This document shows, piece after piece, positions 10,505 through 41,626 of a DNA stretch of 64,000 nt. Where the stretch lies: positions 1 to 64,000 of the forward strand of contig JAQRMW010000119.1 in assembly GCA_028599075.1 (NCBI GenBank), written 5' to 3'. The position numbers and the translations under genes are program-made. Position 1 is the stretch's first letter; the number at the start of each line of letters is the position of its first letter. The notes beneath the pieces are model-generated. The model saw only the letters and a list, made by a program, of their open reading frames with translations, was not told the origin of the DNA and ran no database searches. Source of the stretch: Urechidicola sp. (GTDB lineage: Bacteria > Bacteroidota > Bacteroidia > Flavobacteriales > Flavobacteriaceae).

Positions 10505-13500
10505 TTATCTTCTTACTAAACTAAAATGTCCTTTACGGTTTCGGATGTTACCATCTCGGTCAATAAGTTCTGCTGTAAACCAATAATCATCAGAAGGTAA
10601 TGTTTTTCCATTATAGTAACCATCCCAACCTATACCGGTTGCATCAACATCAGCAATTAATTTGCCAAAACGGTCGAAAACATAAATGGTAGAATTTACA
10701 AAAAAACCATCACTAACACCTTTAACTTGCCATGTGTCATTTTCTCCATCATTGTTTGGAGTGAAAAATTTAGGGAATCCGACTACTGCAACTTCTAATG
10801 TTGCCACACCACAATTGTTTTTGTCTTGTACATAAATGGTGTGTATTCCGGGAGCAACATATTCAAAATAGGGATCGTCTTGGTAAAAGCCAATTCCGCC
10901 ATTGCCGTCACCTAAAGCAAATTCATAATCGCCAATTCCTAGATTATTTCCGGTATTGTTAATTGCGATGGTATTGTTGTCAGAGTCGTCTGTAATTGTA
11001 ACATCGTCATAATCTATATTGGCAATGATAGATTCACTTACCGTAGTTGTTCTTGGTTCTGATTGACAAACAGTACCATCAGGATAGGTATAACTTGCCA
11101 CTACGGTATAGACTCCACCAACTGAAACATCTGCAGTAGGATTGTTGCTAATAATAACATTGTTTTCATCTGTCCAAACATACGAATAAGTGTTTTGTGC
11201 ATTGTAAGTTTCTAAAGTAATCGGTGGTAGGTTTAGGCAGACAATCCGCTCATCATCTACATCAAACTGAGGGAGTGGATTTACATATAAAGTTATATGA
11301 TGTCCGTTACCTAAACAATCATTTCCTAATTGACTATCAGCTCTTACCCAAATTTCTTGCATTCCAGGTGAACTGGTATTTTGATAATTGCTAGGGTCAA
11401 CTATTTCATTAATCTCACTTGTAGCATCTGCCTCATTTTGATAATAGTGAACGGTTACAGTAATAGGAAATATAGTTTCTATTTGAGCAGTAACAGAACT
11501 AAAGTCAAAAGTGGCAATACCATCTGTTGTATCTACACCATCATCACAGGCATAAAATTCTTCTAAGAAATTTGTTGGTATTGCAGATGGCTTTACTACC
11601 AATTCTATTTGAGTTGTTCTAAAACAACCATTGTCATTTTCTATCCGCACCCAAACAGTATTATCAACATTGGCAATTTGATTGGTATAGATTATAGGAT
11701 CTGGTATAGGAGAGTTTCCAGTATTGGCATCTGCTAATGATTCGTAATAGGTAAACACTTCGGTGTTAATGTTAGTAACAATTTCTGTATTGATTTCTGT
11801 AAGGTTAAATGTATTAAACCCATCAAAATCATCATCACACTGTTCTAGTACAAAAGGAGGTGTGTTAAGAACAGGCAATTCAAAAACTTCAATTTCAAAT
11901 TCAGTGTCAGCATAACAAGAGCTTTCTAAATTATTAGTCATGCGTACATAAATGATTTGACCACCAGAAAAACCAGAATTATCATAGTTATTAGGAGTGC
12001 CAATCAAACTTGTATAACCAGCATCAGTAAAATAGGTCAAGGTAAAATCTGAGTTAGCTTGTCCATTTAAAATATCAGTTTCGTTTTGAGTTAAATCAAA
12101 CAAAATGAATCCATCGGTATCTGTCCCAACCGATGTGTTGTCACAATTTTCTATTGATGATATACTCGCCGCATCTAACGGGAAAGCTGAGTTATATACT
12201 TCAATATCAAAAGAAGATGTGTCGTAACAAGATGTAGGGTTTAAATCATTTTCTACTCTTGCATAAATAGTGGTTGTACCACTTTCAAAAGGACTAGATA
12301 TTGGATTGGCATTTGTATCAGCATCTGCTTGAGTTGGATGATAAGTAATTGTCATTCCTGCTGAAGTATTGATAAATGCATCTTGGTCGGTCAAGGTAAA
12401 TGGCATTGTACCATTATTGTCATCGTCACATAAAATCATTGTTGGAGCTATATTAGCTACAGGTTGTTCGTAAATAATTAAATCAAATGAGGTGGTTGCA
12501 AAACATGCAGCATTTAAATTATTTGTCATTTGTACATAAATGGTCTGTCCTCCTGCAAAACCAGTATTGTCAAATGTATTAGGAGTGACAATTTGATTGA
12601 GATAACCCGCATCCGTAAAATAGGTTAGTGTAAAGTCTGTTGTAGCTTGTCCGTTTAAGATTTCTAATTCTTTTACTGATAAATCGGTAATAAGCAATCC
12701 GTCATTTAAAGTTCCAATACTCGTATCATCACACAACTCGAGTGTTGTCATTGTTGCCGAATCTGTTGGAAATGCAGATTCATATAACTCAATATCAAAA
12801 GAAGTGGTATCGTAACAATTTGGATTTCCTGTAGGGTGAATACGAGCATAAATAGTTGCACTACCACTTTCATAAGGGATAGTTAGTGGGTTACTATTTG
12901 CATCAGCATCTGCTTGAGAGCTAAAATAAAGAACTTCCATATTTCGTTGAGCTCCAATTAATAATGCATCATTTATGGATAGGTCAAAAGGAAAGGTGCC
13001 ATTGTTATCATCATCACATTCGATAAGAGTCTGAGTTGCAAGAGCAATACTATAATCGTAAACTGCAATGGTAAACTCACCTTCTAAAGTATTCGAATTG
13101 CCACAAGTATCCGTATGCTCCGCAACCAATTTATATATTCCATTATCTGCTGGGGTAACATTTGTAAAACTTAAGTTTGGCAAAGTTGAAAAAGGAATAG
13201 GATTGCTATCTAAATACCATTTATATGAAATAGAACCTGCTGGAGAATCTGGTGCTATATCAATATTATCGCCAGTACACATGTTAAAAGTTTGATCATT
13301 TACAACAGATGTGTTACCCATACCATCATCAGCAAGTAAAGGTATTGATGAAAAGATGGATGCAATAAATGGGGGCAAGCCTTGAGAAGAATTAAATCCA
13401 CTTAAGCTAATGGCATTATGTTGGTAATTAGCAGCAGTTCCATCTTCATTTGGGTTTTCTATCACTCCTAAAAAAGGCAAGCCAACATTGTATGACTGAG

Positions 13501-14527
13501 AAACAGCACGGTATATTTTATGATCTGGACCTAACTGTAATGCTCCTCTGTACATATTTTGAGCATCAACAATTTGTCTCGAATTTATAATATCAGCTGC
13601 TGTAGGTAAGCTTACATCAAATTGGATAAGAGAAGAATAATGAGCACCAACAGAGTCGTCACCAAATGGCCCACCATTAGAGGCATGTACATATACTTTT
13701 TTACTGTTGGGCGAAAACTCTACACCATATGGTTGGTTAGGTTGTAAAAAACTACTTATACCACTTATAACTGGCATTTGTAAATTCAATTCATTAGTTA
13801 CTGCACCTGTTGCATCGTCAAAATCGTACACTAAAAAACCACCAATTTGCATGTGAGCTACACCAACTTTAGTGCCATCTGGAGATATTTTTAAGTAACC
13901 TCTTGGGTCACTAGAAAAATAAGGAACAAGAGATCTTTGTGGGTTATTAACATCAACACCTTGATCGGTAATTTCATAAGCAAAGAACTCATTTTGAGTT
14001 AATGATAGTACCCAGAAAGTTTCACAATCAGCTCCTTTTACAGCAGCAACTTTTTCAGTCCAACTTGCAGGACTTCGTTCTTTTGTTAAATCAACTGGTC
14101 CTGAGATGATATCACCTAATCCACCATTGGCAGACATGTCTAATTCATAATAATTAAAGCCAGCATTTCCATTAGATTGGGCACCCACCGTAAATATATA
14201 ATAGATAGTGGTACTTCCTGGTTTAGGAATAATCATAGCTGATTGCGAGCTAGAAGAATCACCAGCCAACCCAACACCATTGGGCATAGGGGTGTGATTT
14301 CTATTCCAAACAGTTGACCCATCAGAATAAAAAAGTAAATTTCCTAAGGGATCAGAAAACGAAGAACACCCTTCAAAAGTATCTATTTGCCCACCAGTTA
14401 AAGCAGTTGGAGGGATGTTGTTAAAATCTAAACCTGCATTGTGACCAAAGTACCAAACATTGGCTTCGCCTTGTGCAAAGGTTGAAAATGTAACAGAGAA
14501 TATAAAGAAATATAATAGGTTTTTCAT
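10505..14527 (-). CDS. Large T9SS type B sorting domain protein with internal repeats (1340 aa)
   Basis: A signal peptide lies at 1-19 (MKNLLYFFIFSVTFSTFAQ). The N-terminus shares the WYFGHNAGLDFNN / GNLLFYSDGSTVWNRNH module of the two paralogues. From about residue 490 to 1110 there are roughly six ~105-aa repeats, each starting with a motif like ECDDDNNGTFPFDL or ENCDNTSVGTDTDGF and ending with a TIYARI/TIYVQM strand. The C-terminus is the type B sorting domain (FFTPNNDGENDTWQV, IYVFDRFGKLI, WDGYYNG, DYWFTAEL, FSLVRR). The repeats probably form a fibre of beta-sandwich domains on the cell surface. It is the first gene of the cluster, and the larger repeat number explains its size. Confidence 0.9.
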   Translation of the reverse strand: MKNLLYFFIFSVTFSTFAQGEANVWYFGHNAGLDFNNIPPTALTGGQIDTFEGCSSFSDPLGNLLFYSDGSTVWNRNHTPMPNGVGLAGDSSSSQSAMIIPKPGSTTIYYIFTVGAQSNGNAGFNYYELDMSANGGLGDIISGPVDLTKERSPASWTEKVAAVKGADCETFWVLSLTQNEFFAYEITDQGVDVNNPQRSLVPYFSSDPRGYLKISPDGTKVGVAHMQIGGFLVYDFDDATGAVTNELNLQMPVISGISSFLQPNQPYGVEFSPNSKKVYVHASNGGPFGDDSVGAHYSSLIQFDVSLPTAADIINSRQIVDAQNMYRGALQLGPDHKIYRAVSQSYNVGLPFLGVIENPNEDGTAANYQHNAISLSGFNSSQGLPPFIASIFSSIPLLADDGMGNTSVVNDQTFNMCTGDNIDIAPDSPAGSISYKWYLDSNPIPFSTLPNLSFTNVTPADNGIYKLVAEHTDTCGNSNTLEGEFTIAVYDYSIALATQTLIECDDDNNGTFPFDLSINDALLIGAQRNMEVLYFSSQADADANSNPLTIPYESGSATIYARIHPTGNPNCYDTTSFDIELYESAFPTDSATMTTLELCDDTSIGTLNDGLLITDLSVKELEILNGQATTDFTLTYFTDAGYLNQIVTPNTFDNTGFAGGQTIYVQMTNNLNAACFATTSFDLIIYEQPVANIAPTMILCDDDNNGTMPFTLTDQDAFINTSAGMTITYHPTQADADTNANPISSPFESGTTTIYARVENDLNPTSCYDTSSFDIEVYNSAFPLDAASISSIENCDNTSVGTDTDGFILFDLTQNETDILNGQANSDFTLTYFTDAGYTSLIGTPNNYDNSGFSGGQIIYVRMTNNLESSCYADTEFEIEVFELPVLNTPPFVLEQCDDDFDGFNTFNLTEINTEIVTNINTEVFTYYESLADANTGNSPIPDPIIYTNQIANVDNTVWVRIENDNGCFRTTQIELVVKPSAIPTNFLEEFYACDDGVDTTDGIATFDFSSVTAQIETIFPITVTVHYYQNEADATSEINEIVDPSNYQNTSSPGMQEIWVRADSQLGNDCLGNGHHITLYVNPLPQFDVDDERIVCLNLPPITLETYNAQNTYSYVWTDENNVIISNNPTADVSVGGVYTVVASYTYPDGTVCQSEPRTTTVSESIIANIDYDDVTITDDSDNNTIAINNTGNNLGIGDYEFALGDGNGGIGFYQDDPYFEYVAPGIHTIYVQDKNNCGVATLEVAVVGFPKFFTPNNDGENDTWQVKGVSDGFFVNSTIYVFDRFGKLIADVDATGIGWDGYYNGKTLPSDDYWFTAELIDRDGNIRNRKGHFSLVRR

Positions 14528-27368: not shown

Positions 27369-28357
27369 AATTGTAATCCTAATTTATTTACGCGTTTAAA
27401 ACCATCATTACTATTAAACTTGATATTGACCCCTTCAATTAAATACTTACCATCATGCTCACTATTTTCATAGTTTGGGTCAGTAATATCTACACTCTCA
27501 CCACTTTTGGTTCTTGGGTTACCCCACGTTGGGATACTACCCTGATAACCGTCAAAATTTAAACTCTTAAAGTTCTTTTCAGCTAAATCTTTTAATTCAG
27601 CTTTCGACTTGTCAGTAAAGTGTAATGTACGTTGAGCGCCTCCAGAATCTCCATAAGATTCATGAATCCGCTTACCATCTTTATTAATAGCAATTGCCTT
27701 TAACAACAGTTTAAAATCTTCTTTACGAACAAATTTTAAATCATTGCTTAGGGCCCTAACATTTCTGTTAATAATAATTTCGTGTACTTTTTGGGGTTTA
27801 AAACTTATAGGGAAGCCGACCTCGAGAACCTTGTCTTTAAAACGTGCATGTAGTCCATAATTTTTACGGAGTCTACTCAATACTTTGTATGCGCTCTCAT
27901 TGTCAATAGTAAACTTTCCTAGTTTTACATTGTCAATCAGATCATACGAATAGTCAGGAGCAATCATTTTTACTAATTGCTCTAAAGTTGCCTCTTTAAG
28001 AACAGCCGTATGATTGGTTTTTCTTAAAAAATGCATCTCATCTTCACAGTCTATCTGAAGTGGTATGTCAGCACCTATGCGCTTAACATAACCTTCAAAT
28101 TCTAGCTGTAAATCATCATCATATCCAAGCCAAATACTTACAGGATCGTCAACCTTAATAAATTCTAAAATATTGCGACCAGCAAAAGGAGTTGGTTTTC
28201 CATCACTAGTAGATTCAAGATATTCACGAGGTAAAATTATAGTTGCTTTATTCTCAAGCAACTTTATACTATCTTCAATACTAATACTATTTACATAATC
28301 AAGACTGATTGTACCAATATTGACCTTACAAACCATATTGTAATAAAGCGGTATCAT
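27365..28357 (-). CDS. Baseplate hub protein, gpD/late-control-D-like
   Basis: 330 aa. It reads as the hub family: ISIEDSIKLLENKATIILP near 25-43, an EFEGYVKRIGADIPLQIDCED section, a FTIDNESAYKVLSRLRKNYGLHARF section (~150-175), and a C-terminal DGKYLIEGVNIKFN-type strand pair. The tail hub sits under the tube and holds the spike. Follows the DUF6046-like gene with a 4-nt overlap and precedes the amidase. Start ATG at 28357. Confidence 0.75.
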   Translation of the reverse strand: MIPLYYNMVCKVNIGTISLDYVNSISIEDSIKLLENKATIILPREYLESTSDGKPTPFAGRNILEFIKVDDPVSIWLGYDDDLQLEFEGYVKRIGADIPLQIDCEDEMHFLRKTNHTAVLKEATLEQLVKMIAPDYSYDLIDNVKLGKFTIDNESAYKVLSRLRKNYGLHARFKDKVLEVGFPISFKPQKVHEIIINRNVRALSNDLKFVRKEDFKLLLKAIAINKDGKRIHESYGDSGGAQRTLHFTDKSKAELKDLAEKNFKSLNFDGYQGSIPTWGNPRTKSGESVDITDPNYENSEHDGKYLIEGVNIKFNSNDGFKRVNKLGLQL

Positions 28358-28959
28358 TGACTTGGATTTAACAACGTGAATGCCACAGGTTTAATGCTTC
28401 TGGCTGTTAAAGTATATTGTATGGTATCTTCAAACCCTTGTACACCATTAATCTCAATACTCTTAAAATAAATGTCAGAAATAGATTTGTCAAAGAACTG
28501 TGTGCCGTAAACACTTACTACTTTATTATATTCGAATAAGGTATTTAAAGCGTCTATTTTGTCTGTAGGATATGTCCTATTTTCAATGTCAATCAATAAG
28601 CCTCGCATTCTAATATTCCAAGGCTTTGTACCCCACCTTTCTACTACTTGAGTATCTGTACCATTAATTTCGGTTTCTACATGGCTCTTATCTCTAGCAA
28701 AACTTATTAATGGCGGAGGAGCAAAAATGTTATCATTTACCTTTTGGCCTGCAAGTAATGTTGTAGAGCCAAAGTTGATTTGATTAATCCCAAACTTAAA
28801 AGAGGTTTGTTCAAAATCATCGGTATCATAATCATAGTATTCAAGGTCATATCCTTTATCGGTTTTGCTTAAACCAACAGCATTCGGCTTAATTGCACCT
28901 GCAACTCTACCAAATGCCGCTTGATATCTATGTGATAATTGAAGTGTTACTAATGTCAT
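28354..28959 (-). CDS. Phage tail/baseplate protein (possibly DUF6046)
   Basis: 201 aa. Beta-rich, with FAPPPLISFARDKSHVETE, then VERWGTKPWNIRMRGLLIDI and YTLTARSIKP. This pattern is known from tail genes of Bacteroidota phages between the chaperone/tape measure and the hub; it may connect the tube to the hub. Its ATG overlaps the stop of the predicted frameshifted chaperone (ATGA), which argues that translation of that extension is real. Confidence 0.68.
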   Translation of the reverse strand: MTLVTLQLSHRYQAAFGRVAGAIKPNAVGLSKTDKGYDLEYYDYDTDDFEQTSFKFGINQINFGSTTLLAGQKVNDNIFAPPPLISFARDKSHVETEINGTDTQVVERWGTKPWNIRMRGLLIDIENRTYPTDKIDALNTLFEYNKVVSVYGTQFFDKSISDIYFKSIEINGVQGFEDTIQYTLTARSIKPVAFTLLNPSQ

Positions 28960-29461
28960 TCTAGTTGCTTTTTTATGGTGGATCCTAGCACACCAGAATC
29001 AGCTAAAAATTTCACTTGCGCCCATTTCATAGACCACTCTTCATCACTTAAAAACTCTGGAAAAGGAATATGTAAAAAGTGGCTTATAAAAGCATCTATT
29101 TTAAATACCGAATCCTTTTCTGCCTTATAGTGAAGACCTGAGCAGTCTAAAAGAACTTTTTTATGTTACCCTGGCCTATTGGAATTAGGTCGGCTAATAA
29201 AGCCACCGTGGTATTAAACATAAAATCATCTGCTTCAATTTGCTCTTTATGACTTAACAAACAGCCTCGTAAAAGAATTTCTTGAGCCTTTTTAGGATTA
29301 CTGTCTGTCCATTTCATGTACTGTCCTAAGACGGTTCTCGATGGCACTACAGCTGTAGCTTCAATCATTTCTGTTTGTTTTTCATCAACAGGTATTTCAA
29401 GTATTCTTAACTTGTCTTTACCGTACTTTGCCACTAAGGCTTCTTTCTCTTTTTTGTCCAT
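28956..29461 (-). CDS. Tail assembly chaperone, -1 frameshift product (GT-like)
   Basis: The 0-frame gene from 29461 ends with ...GNIKKFF. At its end is A AAA AAG (29156-29162). After a -1 shift the frame continues for 66 codons (VLLDCSGLHYK, then FISHFLHIPFPEFLSDEEWS, then a C-terminal IKKQLE) to a TGA at 28956-28958. This extension has no start codon of its own in its first half, is coding-like, and ends in an ATGA overlap with the next gene. A total of ~168 aa fits the G-GT chaperones of many tailed phages, which load the tape measure. Confidence 0.75.
29147..29461 (-). CDS. Tail assembly chaperone, short form (G-like)
   Basis: 104 aa, mostly helical (KEALVAKYGKDKLRILEIPV, then LGQYMKWTDSNPKKAQEILL). 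Located directly after the tail tube gene, as is usual for tail assembly chaperones. The zero-frame TAG at 29147-29149 comes three codons after the slippery site. Both the short and the frameshifted form are probably made. The starting ATG is 5 nt after the tube gene stop. Confidence 0.75.
   Translation of the reverse strand: MDKKEKEALVAKYGKDKLRILEIPVDEKQTEMIEATAVVPSRTVLGQYMKWTDSNPKKAQEILLRGCLLSHKEQIEADDFMFNTTVALLADLIPIGQGNIKKFF
29156..29162 (-). other. Slippery heptamer A AAA AAG (programmed -1 frameshift)
   Basis: In zero frame ATA AAA AAG TTC TTT TAG. The heptamer A AAA AAG is among the most efficient -1 sites known in bacteria. After the slip the reading is AAA AAA GTT CTT TTA and stays open for 66 codons. 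Confidence 0.8.
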
Positions 29462-29466
29462 TATAA

Positions 29467-29877
29467 TTACGCATTGTTATATTTAATATCTAACACAAAT
29501 AAGGCATATTGCTTTTGCAATCCCATATCGCCAGTTACATCTCTTCCTTGATCCTGGAACTTCGCCAAAATGGTGTCGTTCACAATATCATTAAACTCAT
29601 TTACCAATGACACATTGATATAAAATGGTTTTACGTTCAATAAATTACCACCTGCAGCTTTCTCAATTGGCGCAATGTCGTGCACCATTAAAGTTACCGA
29701 TGCAGTATCAGTAATCTTACCTTTACTCCACGAGTTTGCTTTTGATTTAAGCGTATGATTTAACTGATGTTCTTGTTCTGTGTTGTAAGAAATTTCAACA
29801 ATATCAGTTGGTATTCCTGCAATTACTGCTTCTACATCTGCCGAGTCATAGGCTTTGTTATTCTTTATCGCTGCCAT
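29467..29877 (-). CDS. Tail tube protein
   Basis: 136 aa. It follows the sheath gene by 1 nt and precedes the chaperone, the fixed order in contractile tails. Beta-rich, with LKSKANSWSKGKITDTASVT and VHDIAPIEKAAGGNLL. Moderately conserved in Bacteroidota Mu-like phages. Forms the inner tube through which DNA and probably the MuF toxin pass. Confidence 0.75.
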   Translation of the reverse strand: MAAIKNNKAYDSADVEAVIAGIPTDIVEISYNTEQEHQLNHTLKSKANSWSKGKITDTASVTLMVHDIAPIEKAAGGNLLNVKPFYINVSLVNEFNDIVNDTILAKFQDQGRDVTGDMGLQKQYALFVLDIKYNNA

Positions 29878-29878
29878 C

Positions 29879-31126
29879 TTATAAACTGTTTTTTAGATTA
29901 GATGTACCCTCAATAGCATTAACATTGCCATAAGGCACTATTCTAAATTTTACTTTTAAGAGTTTTTCGGTAATTAAATCACTGTCAGGATCAACTGTTG
30001 TTTTACCAACAGAAATCTCACGTCTAGTTTCCATATCACCCAAAACGGTGTCACCTAAATTCTCAAAGTATTTTATAACTCCGATTGGTAGCTTTCCTGT
30101 TTTTGGATTTACTGGTTGCTTCGTTTTTACCTTTGGTAGTAATGCGGTTCTTAAAACTCTACGCGCTTTGTCATGGGTTCTACCATAAGCAATAGTGTGT
30201 TCGTTTATGTTACCCTCATTATCAATAATGACCTCAGTACAAGTGTGGTCGTTATTCCAACGTACACCATCTAAGCCATTATAAGTAACTCCAAAAATAA
30301 AACCTTTATCTTCTAAGGTTTGTAGAGAGCTTTTAACCGTTTTAATCGCAACATGATTAGACAATCCTGCAACGATCCAAATACCTCTAAAGGCATTGGT
30401 TAAGTTAAAGGCTTCATTGTCACCAATATTCTGATTTACATCAGCTTTGGCAACAGTACCTAAGGCAGTTCCTACTTCAGCAAACTTCTGAGCGTTTCCA
30501 TTCAACGTCTCAGCATAGTCATAATCTTGACCAATTACTACAGATACATTTGTAGCATTAACACCTGCAATAGCTCTTAAATCTGCTACAGTAGCAGAGT
30601 CGCCACCATAGTCATATCCTTCTAACACAATATTTAAAGGCATAAACCTATCTGCTGCCCAATCATATAATGCTTGAGCTTTAGGTATTGCGTTATACAC
30701 ATCGTCAGGAATTCCGTTTAACTGTACAGTTGCACCAGTTGGGTTAACACTTACTGCCAATTGTCTAATGTCGCCTTCAGCTTCATTCAACATTTTTTTA
30801 GCAAATACCTCTCCAGCATCGTCACAAATATCAGTCATAGTTGTGGCTTGAGGTACTAACAGTAAATACAGTTTAGTACCCTCACCAGCCATACGGTAAA
30901 ACTCTGAAATATGACGGAAAACAGTTACATCGTTATCACTATCATAAGCAGCGTCTATTCCTAAATTTTCAGCATCAACAATATTGTATATTGTTGTAAC
31001 TGTACCAAGGGCTAAACTGGAGGTAGCAACAGCAGCAGCAATCAACCCCGAAAAGCTATCGCCAATTGCCAACGTATTCGCTCCAATTTTACCCCTGTTT
31101 ATTTTTACACCGTCTAATGTTGCCAT
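29879..31126 (-). CDS. Tail sheath protein (DUF2586-like)
   Basis: 415 aa. The sequence shows the Ala-rich, DUF2586-type body (LALGTVTTIYNIVDAENLGI, YLLLVPQATTMTDICDD, FRGIWIVAGLSNHVAIKTV) and a conserved C-terminal part (GDMETRREISVG, VKFRIVPYGNVNAIEGT). DUF2586 proteins replace the classical Mu sheath in Bacteroidota phages. Its presence shows a contractile tail. Confidence 0.82.
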   Translation of the reverse strand: MATLDGVKINRGKIGANTLAIGDSFSGLIAAAVATSSLALGTVTTIYNIVDAENLGIDAAYDSDNDVTVFRHISEFYRMAGEGTKLYLLLVPQATTMTDICDDAGEVFAKKMLNEAEGDIRQLAVSVNPTGATVQLNGIPDDVYNAIPKAQALYDWAADRFMPLNIVLEGYDYGGDSATVADLRAIAGVNATNVSVVIGQDYDYAETLNGNAQKFAEVGTALGTVAKADVNQNIGDNEAFNLTNAFRGIWIVAGLSNHVAIKTVKSSLQTLEDKGFIFGVTYNGLDGVRWNNDHTCTEVIIDNEGNINEHTIAYGRTHDKARRVLRTALLPKVKTKQPVNPKTGKLPIGVIKYFENLGDTVLGDMETRREISVGKTTVDPDSDLITEKLLKVKFRIVPYGNVNAIEGTSNLKNSL

Positions 31127-34332: not shown

Positions 34333-34405
34333 GGCGAGGTAGAGCAGTGGTAGCTCGTTGGGCTCATATCCCAAAGGTCGCAGGTTCGAGTCCTGCCCTT
34401 CGCTA
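34333..34405 (+). tRNA. tRNA-Met (CAT anticodon), acceptor stem with a bulge
   Basis: Cloverleaf: acceptor GGCGAGG; D-arm GAGC-AGTGGTA-GCTC; anticodon arm TTGGG-CTCATAT-CCCAA with CAT at 34365-34367; T-arm GCAGG-TTCGAGT-CCTGC. The 3' acceptor strand is CCTTCGCT where CCTCGCT would pair perfectly, so one T is extra. No encoded full CCA (ACA follows). It lies inside the prophage, just before the terminase small subunit. Confidence 0.85.
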
Positions 34406-34418
34406 CAAAAAATTACTA

Positions 34419-36931: not shown

Positions 36932-38170
36932 ATGAAGATATTTGGATTTGAAATAAATCGTTCTAAGGGGCTAAATAACGCAAATGCTATAAAAGGTGAT
37001 GGAGGTAGATTAATTGCTGCTGATAAAGATTTGATAATGAAAATTGTCAACGGCTTTAAAGACAGTAGTCGTAAAGACATACAAAAATGGCGAAACGCTA
37101 TTAAGATAACGCAGCTACCCGAAAAACCTCGATACGATGCATTACAAGATTTGTACGACGATTTAATGACCGATGGTCATTTACGTGGTGAGTTAAGATT
37201 GCGTAAGTATTCAATACTCAATACGGCATTTAGTATTGTAGATAAAAGTAGCAATAAAGAAAATGAAGAGGCTACAGAATTCTTTAATCAAAAATGGTTT
37301 TATCAATTATTATCTCATGCCATCGATTCAACAATTAAGGGACACACCTTGGTTGAATTCAAAGCCTTTTATAAAGATAAAATTGAACACGTTTTAATTC
37401 CACGGCGCAATGTTGTACCACAGCAAAAAATTATTGTACCAGACTTAACCAAAGAAGATGTTGTTGATTATACTGACCCTTATTTTGAAGATTGGCTTAT
37501 TGAAATGGGTGGCGATGATGAAGATAGCAAACTCGGAATTTTAAATGACATTATACCAAACCTAATTTGGAAACGAAATGTAGCACAGTCTTGGGCAGAG
37601 TTTTGCGAAAAATTTGGAATGCCTTTAATCACAGCAACAACCAATACTACTGACACTAAAAAGCTCGATAAAATTGAGTATATGCTACAACAGTTAGGCG
37701 AAGCATCTACTGGTGTATTTCCTTTAGGAACTACGGTAGAGATAAAAGAAGCTAGTAGAACAGATGCTTATAATACTTATTTAAACTTTATCAAGTTTAA
37801 TCGTGAAGAGATAAGTGTTGCTTTAGTTGGGGGTACTATGATTATGAGTGATGGTAGTTCTCGAAGTCAATCAGAAGTACACGAACGTAATTTAGATGAT
37901 AAAATTTCTGCAGCTGAAAAACGCTCGCTAGGTTTCTTGGTAAATGATGTTGTTATTCCATTATTACGAAACCAAGGATATTCGTTCCTGAAGGAAAATG
38001 ATAAATTTATTTTCAATCAATCTCATAACCTGGACCTTGATAAATTTTGGAGTATTACTAAAGGAATAATGAAAGACTTTGATGTTGATCCTGATTGGCT
38101 CACATCTACTTTCTACGTTCCTATCGTGGGTAAAAAAAAAAATCCCAACCCAAAATCAAACCTTGAGTAA
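36932..38170 (+). CDS. Portal protein (DUF935, Mu gp29 type)
   Basis: 412 aa. DUF935 marks: early LQDLYDDLMTDGHLRGELRL (~70-89), KRNVAQSWAEFCEKFGMPLI (~215-234) and late GSSRSQSEVHERNLDDKISA. Forms the 12-mer ring for DNA packaging and tail attachment. The gene overlaps the MuF gene at its 3' end. An A-rich leader (TATAAAAATATACA) precedes the ATG, as normal for this phylum. Confidence 0.9.
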   Translation: MKIFGFEINRSKGLNNANAIKGDGGRLIAADKDLIMKIVNGFKDSSRKDIQKWRNAIKITQLPEKPRYDALQDLYDDLMTDGHLRGELRLRKYSILNTAFSIVDKSSNKENEEATEFFNQKWFYQLLSHAIDSTIKGHTLVEFKAFYKDKIEHVLIPRRNVVPQQKIIVPDLTKEDVVDYTDPYFEDWLIEMGGDDEDSKLGILNDIIPNLIWKRNVAQSWAEFCEKFGMPLITATTNTTDTKKLDKIEYMLQQLGEASTGVFPLGTTVEIKEASRTDAYNTYLNFIKFNREEISVALVGGTMIMSDGSSRSQSEVHERNLDDKISAAEKRSLGFLVNDVVIPLLRNQGYSFLKENDKFIFNQSHNLDLDKFWSITKGIMKDFDVDPDWLTSTFYVPIVGKKKNPNPKSNLE

Positions 38171-39479
38171 TGTAACTGCATTCGGAGCACGTGTCCCTAA
38201 TTATCCTGAGTCGATATGCTGCGACCACTTCGTTGCAGTTGCCTCAGGGCTTTCAGAACGCATCAAAAAAATACAGGATCAACTCGCTAAAGAAATTTAT
38301 GAGAGTAAGCAAAACCTAGATACTCAAGCACAGTTAATTGCTGAAGAGGGTTTATTAATGATAAACGGTTTGCATAATGGTTATGGTAAATTACGAGTTG
38401 AAGCTGCTTGGGATGCTCCTGATCATTTAATGCTTCAAATGATGGAATTAAACATCATTGAGTTTGCAGCTTCTAAAACCGAAGCGCGTTTTGCTGCCAT
38501 GACAGATTTGATGTTGAACCGTGATAAAAATCAAATTCGCTCATTTAGTGACTTTAAAAGCGAAGTTGATAAGTTAACCAGTAACTATAACAAAACTTGG
38601 TTAGAGACCGAGTATAACTTTTCAATTGCAACAGCTCAAAACTCAGCCGCATATATGCGCCAAAAATCAGAAGCCGAAAGTGTAACGCCGTATGTACAAT
38701 ATCAAACCGTTGGCGATGATCAGGTAAGAGACGAACACGCCTTATTAGATGGCAGAGTTTTTAATCTAAATGATAAAGAAGCAATGCGCCTTTATCCTCC
38801 AAACGGTTACAACTGCCGTTGTGAGATGATACAATATGTTGGTAATAAAGATAAAGTAATCAGTGGTAAATCCGCAGTAAAATTATTAGGTGATCAGTTT
38901 GAGGGCTCTGCTTTTAATTTTAATAGAGCTGATGCTAAACAAGTTTTTAAACGCAGTCAATTTTATACAGATGATGGTGAGGTACTAACAAAAATTAATG
39001 ATATCAGTTACGAGTCTTATAAAAATTTAACCGCTTGGAAATTATTTAAAAGCAAGTTAAAAAAACTAAAAATTGACAAGACGATTGTTCCTGGTAATAA
39101 GGATGAGTTGTTTAGATCTGATGGAAAACGTGGAAAAGTAGATTTTATGGGCTTTACAGACCATTTACAACGTAAAGTTATACTTAAAAAAGATGTTTTT
39201 GATACACATACTTCGGGTAAATACTTACAAAAAGGCGAAGTGAGACACCAGCTTTTTCCACACGTAAAAAGTGTATTGAATGATGCTGATGAAGTATGGT
39301 TAATTTCTGTAAGTGATAAGAAATACATTATGCGATATATCAAGTTTTTTGCAGATGAAGTTTTGATAATCGAAACCGAAATCGGAGCAAAAAGCAATGA
39401 AATTAAAACATGGTATAAAATGAAAACTGACGAAATTGATAGAAGAAAAGGATTGTTATTAAAAAAGCGAAAGGTTTAA
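38163..39479 (+). CDS. MuF-type head morphogenesis protein with C-terminal nuclease toxin domain
   Basis: 438 aa from the TTG at 38163 (an ATG at 38079 deep in the portal gene is less likely). The MuF part reaches to ~residue 245 with the typical DEHALLDGRVFNL, then LYPPNGYNCRCEMI. The C-terminal ~130 residues look like a PBECR-type (Barnase-EndoU-ColicinE5/D-RelE-like) nuclease: DFMGFTDHLQRKVIL, HTSGKYLQKGEVRHQLF, DEVWL, IIETEI and KTWYKM. Such MuF-toxin fusions may be carried in the virion. Immunity gene not seen. A 110-bp gap follows before the tape measure. Confidence 0.75.
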   Translation: MSNVTAFGARVPNYPESICCDHFVAVASGLSERIKKIQDQLAKEIYESKQNLDTQAQLIAEEGLLMINGLHNGYGKLRVEAAWDAPDHLMLQMMELNIIEFAASKTEARFAAMTDLMLNRDKNQIRSFSDFKSEVDKLTSNYNKTWLETEYNFSIATAQNSAAYMRQKSEAESVTPYVQYQTVGDDQVRDEHALLDGRVFNLNDKEAMRLYPPNGYNCRCEMIQYVGNKDKVISGKSAVKLLGDQFEGSAFNFNRADAKQVFKRSQFYTDDGEVLTKINDISYESYKNLTAWKLFKSKLKKLKIDKTIVPGNKDELFRSDGKRGKVDFMGFTDHLQRKVILKKDVFDTHTSGKYLQKGEVRHQLFPHVKSVLNDADEVWLISVSDKKYIMRYIKFFADEVLIIETEIGAKSNEIKTWYKMKTDEIDRRKGLLLKKRKV

Positions 39480-39589: not shown

Positions 39590-41626
39590 ATGAGTGCAAC
39601 AGCAAAATTAAGATTGATTTTAGAACTAGGAAACAAGCTCTTTAACAATAAATTAGTACAAACTCAACGCAAATTAAGAAAGAGTACTGATAAAATGAAA
39701 GGCAAGTTAAAAAGCCTTAAAATATCATCTATAGATGCTTTTTCTGCTATGCGTAATGAAGTCCCTTTATTTGGCAGGGCAATGGACTTGTTAGGTAACC
39801 CCTATGTTCTTTTAACCGCAGGACTCCTTGCGGTCGTCACGCTGATGGGTAAAGCAACTGTCGAAGCCAAAAAATTCAATCATGAGTTCCTTCAGGTACA
39901 AAACTTGAATCTCGATAAAAACAATGCAGATTTAAAAACCTATAAAGGGCTTATCAGGGATACTTCTTTTGAAACTGGTAGAGGCTTGGTAGAATCAACC
40001 AAGGCATATTACGACATTCAATCTGCTCTTGGATTCTATGGTAAAGATGCCGAAAAAGTATTTAAGCAAGTAGCCAAATTTAGTACAGCTACTGGTGCAG
40101 ATTTAAACGATTCTATAAATCAAACTTCAAAAGCTATTAAAGCCTTTGGCCTAGATGCAAAGGATACCGAAATGCTGTTAGATAGCAATGCTAAAACTGT
40201 GCAAGTAGGTATTACAACCTTTAAAGAGCTGGCAAAAGTACAAACCGAGTATGCGGGTGCAGCTGCAGGTGCTGGACAAGAAGTTGATAGTGCTAATAAA
40301 CTATTTGCTGCCTTTACGTCAATTGCAAAAGATAGTAGAACTGCCGCTACCATGACCAAGACAGCTTTTATGGGATTGACCCAAAAAACAACATTAAAAG
40401 GACTTAAAGATATTGGTGTAAGTGTTTATGATGCAAACGGCGAGGTTAGAGATTTGGGCAAAATTTTGATTGATGTAGATAAGCAATTCAAAAAATTAAC
40501 TCCTAAACAAATTGATGCTGTCATCAATAAAATTGGTGGTCCAGAAGGACTCCGAGCTTTACTAACAAAAATGAAGACTGGAGCTGATGATTTATTCAAG
40601 ACATTTTACGCTTTTGACGCCTCTAAATTTAACTTAAATGATGCTCTAAAAAATGCCCATGCTGATGCAACCGTATTAGGACAGATGGTAAAAAATAGAT
40701 TCAATACTATTATGGCGCGCTTAGGCGAAAAAATTATGCCATTGGTGGTTAAAGTGCTTAATAAAGTAAATATCGTACTCACATGGATTTATGATAATTT
40801 TGAGTTGTTAGAAGATATTGTTGAATCTGTAGCTTTTGGCTTTGGTGTACTCGGTGCAAGATTACTTTATTTTCAAGGAATGGCATTATTATCAACATTC
40901 GCATCTGTTGGCTTAAGTGGTGCATTGGGTATGGTAACTTTAGGACTCCACGCTATTAAAACGGCTATCTTCAGTATTCCTATTGTTGGGTGGATTTTAT
41001 TAGCAGTTTCGGCAGTAGTATTGCTCTATAAACGATTCGATAAATTTAGAGCTGTAATCAATGGGTTGGGTGCAGTTTTAAAAGCATTCTTTGTAAATAT
41101 GTGGGAAGGGTTTAAAGATGTTCTCGGAAGCATTATAGATGGTCTAGGTGCTGTTGGAAAAATGCTTAAAGGTCTTTGGGATATGGATTGGGATAAAGTG
41201 AAAGAAGGTGCTAGTGAGTTTGGAGATGCTGTTAAAAGAGGTGTTGGAGGAGCCATAGATATGAATCCTCTCGGTAGTGCTATTAAAAATGGTAAAGAGT
41301 ATGGCAAGGCCTTTAAGGGTGCTTATGATAAAGAAATGGACAAAAGTGCTGCTGCCAAAAATAAAAAAGAGAAAGAAAAAAACTTACTAGACCCAAACAA
41401 TACTGATGAAGAAATTACAACCACCAATACCAATACTGGAGGCGATATTAATAAAGTGAGTAGTGCGGGCTCTGCACCAAAAACCATCATTATTGAAAAA
41501 ATTACTTTTAACGAGGGTGGTATCAATACCACAAATACGGTACTTAATAACATGTCTAAAGAAGAGATTGAAGAGTGGTTTAACGAGTCTATGATGAGAG
41601 TAATTAGAAATGCAGAAATGAGTTAA
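39590..41626 (+). CDS. Tail tape measure protein (TP901 type)
   Basis: 678 aa. The TP901 core is at ~85-390: FNHEFLQVQNLNLDKN, GLVESTKAYYDIQSALGFYG, FSTATGADLNDSINQTSKA. A hydrophobic part with two or three segments is at ~420-480. The tail is Lys-, Asp- and Asn-rich. It sets tail length and forms the channel core. It is coded in the + (head) operon, over 10 kb away from and opposite to its chaperones (28956-29461), which is unusual. Confidence 0.88.
   Translation: MSATAKLRLILELGNKLFNNKLVQTQRKLRKSTDKMKGKLKSLKISSIDAFSAMRNEVPLFGRAMDLLGNPYVLLTAGLLAVVTLMGKATVEAKKFNHEFLQVQNLNLDKNNADLKTYKGLIRDTSFETGRGLVESTKAYYDIQSALGFYGKDAEKVFKQVAKFSTATGADLNDSINQTSKAIKAFGLDAKDTEMLLDSNAKTVQVGITTFKELAKVQTEYAGAAAGAGQEVDSANKLFAAFTSIAKDSRTAATMTKTAFMGLTQKTTLKGLKDIGVSVYDANGEVRDLGKILIDVDKQFKKLTPKQIDAVINKIGGPEGLRALLTKMKTGADDLFKTFYAFDASKFNLNDALKNAHADATVLGQMVKNRFNTIMARLGEKIMPLVVKVLNKVNIVLTWIYDNFELLEDIVESVAFGFGVLGARLLYFQGMALLSTFASVGLSGALGMVTLGLHAIKTAIFSIPIVGWILLAVSAVVLLYKRFDKFRAVINGLGAVLKAFFVNMWEGFKDVLGSIIDGLGAVGKMLKGLWDMDWDKVKEGASEFGDAVKRGVGGAIDMNPLGSAIKNGKEYGKAFKGAYDKEMDKSAAAKNKKEKEKNLLDPNNTDEEITTTNTNTGGDINKVSSAGSAPKTIIIEKITFNEGGINTTNTVLNNMSKEEIEEWFNESMMRVIRNAEMS

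Follow-up and report, generated by a model that had tools for sequence, protein, structure and literature searches.

Does a small tail gene of a Bacteroidota prophage give rise to two proteins through a slip of the ribosome? The question is raised by the gene that follows the tail tube gene in the window, the 64,000-nucleotide stretch of DNA (contig JAQRMW010000119.1, Urechidicola sp.) analysed here as a whole. The sequence-only reading had claimed that this gene ends at the third codon past a slippery A AAA AAG heptamer, that the -1 frame is open for 66 coding-like codons without a start of its own, and that the stop of this frame overlaps the start of the gene behind it as ATGA. Each of these points is borne out below. 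It is highly probable, in our view, that programmed -1 ribosomal frameshifting yields two tail assembly chaperones from this one gene, as in lambda G/GT.

Reading frames and slip site

The zero frame runs on the minus strand from ATG at 29461 to TAG at 29149-29147 and encodes 104 aa. Its 3' end reads GGT AAC ATA AAA AAG TTC TTT TAG, in which the heptamer (29162-29156) is in the zero frame and TAG is the third codon past it. No stop interrupts the -1 frame between 29165 and 28959; its stop is TGA at 28958-28956, and 66 of its codons (29156-28959) would be read after a slip. This TGA shares bases with the ATG (28959) at which the next gene starts. Start codons inside the extension would give proteins of at most 24 aa in the window. 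The features of the locus and of the surrounding phage are collected in Table 1.

Table 1. Features of the chaperone locus and of the phage that carries it (window positions)
Feature	Position	Strand	Basis
Putative zero-frame tail assembly chaperone (G-like), 104 aa	29147..29461	-	phrog_19076 match, AlphaFold/Foldseek
Slippery heptamer A AAA AAG, 6 nt ahead of zero-frame stop	29156..29162	-	conserved motif in relatives
-1 extension (T-like), 66 codons and stop	28956..29156	-	conservation, codon-position substitution bias, helical model
Next gene, Dit-like baseplate/distal tail protein (DUF6046)	28354..28959	-	PF19512 E 2.5e-36; Dit_like 0.007
Tail tube-like protein, upstream of chaperone	29467..29877	-	phrog_4579 tail protein 1e-5; position directly after sheath
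Tail sheath (DUF2586), contractile tail	29879..31126	-	PF10758 E 2e-36; phrog_907 tail sheath 2e-16
Tape measure protein, opposing terminase-portal operon, about 10 kb off	39590..41626	+	phrog_28 tail length tape measure E 6e-44
MuA-type transposase	53330-51228	-	phrog_310 E 2e-22
MuB-type ATPase	51217-50252	-	phrog_296 E 2e-36

In the proposed mechanism, most ribosomes would stop at the TAG and release the 104-aa G-like protein. A minority would shift back by one base at A AAA AAG, where tRNA-Lys(UUU), reading both slip codons, could re-pair as AAA AAA. These ribosomes would add 66 residues and produce a GT-like protein. The predicted fusion of the zero-frame part and the extension has 168 aa, with IKKVLLDCSGLHYK as the predicted peptide across the slip junction. 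By analogy with lambda, the G part would coat the tape measure protein, the C-terminal helical part would recruit tube subunits, and the proportion of short to long form may matter for tail assembly. The analysis shows the reading frames, the conservation of the slippery motif and of -1 coding, and the synteny, and it predicts the chaperone fold. That slippage occurs, its rate, and the division of labour between the two forms are what we infer for this locus.

The stop-to-stop frames of at least 100 aa in the window amount to 19,156 codons and contain 12 in-frame copies of the three strongest bacterial heptamers, of which only two are within 12 nt of a stop. Apart from the heptamer at 29162-29156, no near-stop slippery site of the window leads in its -1 frame into a long ORF that is independently conserved. 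A chance origin of this site is ruled out by its conservation across homologues.

Another in-frame A AAA AAG is found inside the extension (28974-28968, minus strand), 9 nt ahead of the extension stop, and a -1 slip there would open a long frame running into the Dit-like gene. It is common to the window and the close relative L028 only, being absent in L003 and L004, and is therefore probably a chance occurrence. We reject it as a second frameshift site.

Conservation in related phages and other explanations

Relatives were taken from IMG/VR and from scans of GTDB genomes, with chaperone identities mostly of 31-81%. Both parts of the gene were sought by profile searches over all stop-to-stop frames, which gave 38 distinct loci from isolates, prophages, and metagenomes. 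In all 38, the second part occupies the -1 frame, with an overlap at the end of the first part, and neither an in-frame fusion nor a +1 arrangement is found in any of them. A slippery motif ends 3-12 nt ahead of the zero-frame stop in every locus: A AAA AAG in 23, A AAA AAC in 4, G GGA AAG in 4, and G GAA AAG in 7. The heptamer is thus canonical in 31 of the 38; in the G GAA AAG loci, only A AAG is slippery. The sequence-only reading had suggested that homologues be searched for the heptamer and the -1 extension. It had named an extension standing as a separate gene, and close relatives without a slippery site, as cases contrary to a frameshift. Neither was encountered: no locus has a detached extension, and every close relative keeps a slippery site.

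The motif varies along the tree. G GGA AAG (in fF4, L015, L016, and L071) arose at two separate positions. G GAA AAG is found at at least two separate positions, one being the Weeksellaceae prophages. A single clade that includes these prophages (Empedobacter, Chishuiella) accounts for six of the seven G GAA AAG loci, and the seventh is the human gut contig L026. As an observation apart, G GAA AAG was recorded in L037, L038, L039, L064, L066, L067, L026, and L017, where only the A-site lysine tRNA re-pairs perfectly.

A more distant set consists of 12 prophages, one from an earlier family search and the others from order and phylum sampling. The -1 frame is open in all 12 and the extension profile is matched in 11. 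Their sites are A AAA AAG (4), A AAA AAU (2), A AAA AAC (1), A AAU UUU (1), and U UUU UUG (1), and three have no heptamer. A AAA AAG also exists one codon before the stop in pippi8-1, FPSV-S1, Peternella_1, and four further distinct Peternella-type contigs. Since the layout is found in the 38 loci, the distant prophages, and isolated phages, the feature spans the sampled Winoviridae-like phages. Among remote gut phages, the -1 frame is open after the chaperone in Hankyphage p00 (L027), BS-TP1 (L023), and the gut contig L022, although a canonical strong heptamer was not found in these three. Among the points against a frameshift is that 7 of the 38 relatives and several distant ones have only a weak or A AAG-type site. 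Others, described below, are the moderate fold match of the zero-frame protein, its missing sequence match to a named chaperone family, an extension with no convincing structural counterpart, a window member in which no stimulator was found, and a tape measure gene that is not adjacent.

Mean column identity over the 38 sequences is 61% in the extension versus 49% in the zero-frame part. Counted over all pairs, the substitutions in the extension divide 31/21/48% among the first, second, and third codon positions of the -1 frame; the comparison with L003, the nearest relative, gives 10/9/27. Judged by these substitutions, the extension is under purifying selection. Synonymous sites at the slip are, by codon usage, also constrained. 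The Ile codon preceding the two lysine/asparagine codons is ATA in 20 of 20 sequences, while ATA makes up 20% of the Ile codons elsewhere in these genes, a count that is not a formal probability because the sequences are related. From this comparison, a programmed -1 frameshift is very likely.

Other explanations have to be weighed against the same comparison. In GenBank, the extension is given as a separate, 5'-truncated hypothetical gene in fF4 (QHJ72924.1, 47 aa from GTG; L002:5333-5476) and in pippi8-1 (gp39; L019:6251-6379), and in the extensions of several homologues a GTG or ATG would give about 51 aa. These would fit a separate small gene whose start is internal or non-canonical and whose translation is coupled to the stop upstream. 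However, any ATG, GTG, or TTG in the extension yields at most 37 aa in the window, L003, L004, and L014, and internal starts would lose the conserved KVL-DC-GL segment. Nor would such a gene need an in-frame slippery motif before the stop or a -1 phase fixed in all loci. With no usable start in the window and the phase fixed, we reject a gene with its own start, to which we leave a small probability.

The frames could also be joined during transcription. A runs can make polymerase slip, and AAAAAA is present in the window. Yet the phase is kept in relatives that have GGGAAAG, with no long homopolymer, or GGAAAAG, with a run of four A. The constraint on codon phase (X XXY YYZ in the zero frame) would be needless for polymerase, and some relatives have hairpins 5-8 nt downstream, a typical feature of ribosomal sites. 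Given the relatives with GGGAAAG and GGAAAAG, transcriptional slippage is unlikely, its probability being very slight. Assembly errors are often single-base indels in homopolymers, and the locus might really be one in-frame gene, or the extension a decaying remnant, as in a pseudogene. Conservation refutes this reading and reduces its probability to practically nil: the frame breaks at one and the same codon throughout the 38 distinct loci and also in phages that were sequenced independently, the two parts are nowhere found fused in frame, and selection maintains the extension.

Slip-site strength and stimulators

For a ribosomal -1 frameshift, the lysine tRNAs of the host and the signals around the heptamer are of interest. 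The host genome (95% complete) has three tRNA-Lys genes, all with anticodon UUU, and no CUU gene was seen in it. A CUU species of tRNA-Lys is not known in E. coli either. The shiftiness of the E. coli lysyl-tRNA(UUU) has been noted (PMC4066793).

Downstream of the window heptamer, no stimulator hairpin beyond chance was found (z 0.01 and 1.03 in two sequence intervals), and no Shine-Dalgarno-like motif was found upstream of it. Such a motif is found upstream in 10 of the 38 relatives versus a background of 12%, an excess that is partly due to the coding of a conserved EGR segment. Shine-Dalgarno sequences are generally not recognised by Bacteroidia ribosomes (PMC9976891). The prfB +1 site with a Shine-Dalgarno sequence is common in Bacteroidia (PMC8710568), and therefore a role for such sequences is possible in principle. 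The low-level slippage proposed for the window member probably relies on the heptamer alone.

Some relatives do have hairpins. In the A AAA AAC clade (L012, L029, L070, and L136), they begin 6 nt past the heptamer with z of -2.8 to -9.0, and in L137 (A AAA AAU) a hairpin of 12 bp is found at 7 nt (z -6.0). No downstream hairpin was found in L013 (AAC) or L145 (AAU). The mean z of A AAA AAG members is -0.6. The Peternella group (L129-L134) has a conserved hairpin, GACCTCT...AGAGGTC, 5 nt past A AAA AAG (z -2.3 to -4.1), with one compensatory change from C-G to U-A. Hairpin covariation amounts to one compensatory pair each, which is not beyond shuffles, the sequences being too few.

The group difference in hairpin z is nominally significant (Mann-Whitney p 0.008, 34 vs 7, relatedness ignored). 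On the tree, the AAC clade with hairpins has one origin and L137 another, so the association between weak sites and hairpins is suggestive only. We propose tentatively, and with some doubt, that in Bacteroidota phages, which are translated by ribosomes insensitive to Shine-Dalgarno signals, a single frameshift may be adjusted through a trade-off between the strength of the slippery site and hairpins downstream of it. Weak sites (A AAA AAC and A AAA AAU) would have gained strong hairpins at 6-7 nt in two lineages, and several lineages would use G GAA AAG with only the lysine tRNA re-pairing cleanly.

Predicted chaperone fold and relation to known phages

The zero-frame protein matches phrog_19076, a family of unknown function (E 5.5e-6), as do 37 of the 38 family members. 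This is the only curated family that it matches, and among the chaperone families of Pfam and PHROGs none was hit. Its AlphaFold model (pLDDT 90) consists of a helix, two strands, and helices. The best three PDB entries in Foldseek are 3fgx, 2ob9 (HK97 tail assembly chaperone), and 3klu (YqbN), with probabilities of 1.00, 0.97, and 0.66 and TM of 0.42-0.69, a strong ranking with moderate scores. The best PDB E value is 1.2e-3; for the HK97 chaperone, E is 0.06 and TM about 0.52. Sequence identity to chaperones of the HK97, YqbN, and 3fgx type is 7-17%, and the likeness to them is in the predicted fold only, which is nearest to tail assembly chaperones by a moderate match. The extension is modelled as helices (pLDDT 84). 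No convincing structural match to this model was found, and its sequence gave nothing credible against PDB, Pfam, and PHROGs.

The MuA-type transposase and the MuB-type ATPase make this a Mu-like transposable phage. The window also has the Mu portal, MuF, Clp-type head protease, and DUF2586 sheath that mark Mu-like phages and Winoviridae, for which core genes are listed in PMC8776804. Its closest relatives are in Flavobacteriaceae and other Bacteroidota, so that the sequence-only reading was right to see a Bacteroidota transposable phage. Among the isolated phages of the phage collection, the nearest is Flavobacterium phage fF4 (Winoviridae), with a sheath identity of 45%.

The order sheath, tube, chaperone is found in the window, fF4, pippi8-1, FPSV-S1, and Peternella. 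In PHROGs, the tube-like protein matches best a family of 501 positions that is labelled major head protein (4e-13). A baseplate hub gene is also found downstream of the chaperone, with the DUF6046/Dit-like gene. The opposing operon encodes terminase, Mu portal, MuF, and the tape measure protein; in fF4 the tape measure gene is likewise in an opposing operon, the distance being about 9-10 kb in both phages. The tape measure gene directly follows the chaperone in pippi8-1, FPSV-S1, and Peternella, which is not so in the window and fF4. A tape measure gene adjacent downstream is a usual but not strict feature of lambda G/GT-type loci.

The G/GT logic of lambda, which had been read from the sequence, holds in part. 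The -1 arrangement after the tube, and with it a G/GT role, is supported by synteny, predicted fold, and analogy. The gene order is unlike that of lambda because the tape measure gene exists in a separate, opposing operon. In both systems, one gene behind that of the tail tube would give a short protein and, in smaller amount, a form extended in the -1 frame, with a slippery heptamer near the zero-frame end. The lambda site type, GGGAAAG, is used here by fF4 and the three relatives named with it. In contrast to lambda, the window phage is a contractile-tailed, Mu-like phage of Bacteroidota with A AAA AAG as its site. Its 66-aa extension is unlike any named T domain, and no sequence similarity to the lambda proteins is detectable.

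Frameshifts in tail genes have long been known in tailed phages, in -1, -2, and +1 versions (reviewed in PMC5009743). Phage Mu is also a transposable phage with a recoded tail assembly gene, but it slips by -2 (PMC5009743), whereas the window phage would slip by -1. The Winoviridae phages fF4, pippi8-1, FPSV-S1, and Peternella_1 share the gene order and the -1 overlap, which is unannotated there; the Peternella group differs in its added hairpin, and fF4 shares the split operons. In openly accessible papers and records, no description of this frameshift in Winoviridae or Flavobacterium phages was found. What is new is the phage family, while the kind of frameshift is the already known lambda G/GT arrangement.

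The conserved tail-chaperone frameshift is extended by this locus to widespread contractile-tailed Mu-like phages of Bacteroidota. In GenBank, the two halves appear in these phages as unrelated hypothetical proteins, or the second half is omitted. A likely function is gained for phrog_19076. Among the loci, slip sites that have a hairpin and slip sites that lack one also form a natural series, and the ribosomes of the bacteria concerned generally ignore Shine-Dalgarno sequences (PMC9976891, PMC8710568). Such a series is useful for testing bacterial -1 frameshifting without a Shine-Dalgarno stimulator.

Three other genes of the window deserve mention. A tRNA gene with anticodon CAT (34333-34406, plus strand) exists in the prophage between the two diverging structural operons. 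The MuF-like head protein (38079-39479, plus strand) has a C-terminal PBECR2 domain (RelE/EndoU-like nuclease), a MuF toxin-fusion pattern. A 1340-aa protein (10505-14527, minus strand) has an Ig-like domain and a CHU_C type IX secretion signal, typical of Bacteroidota.
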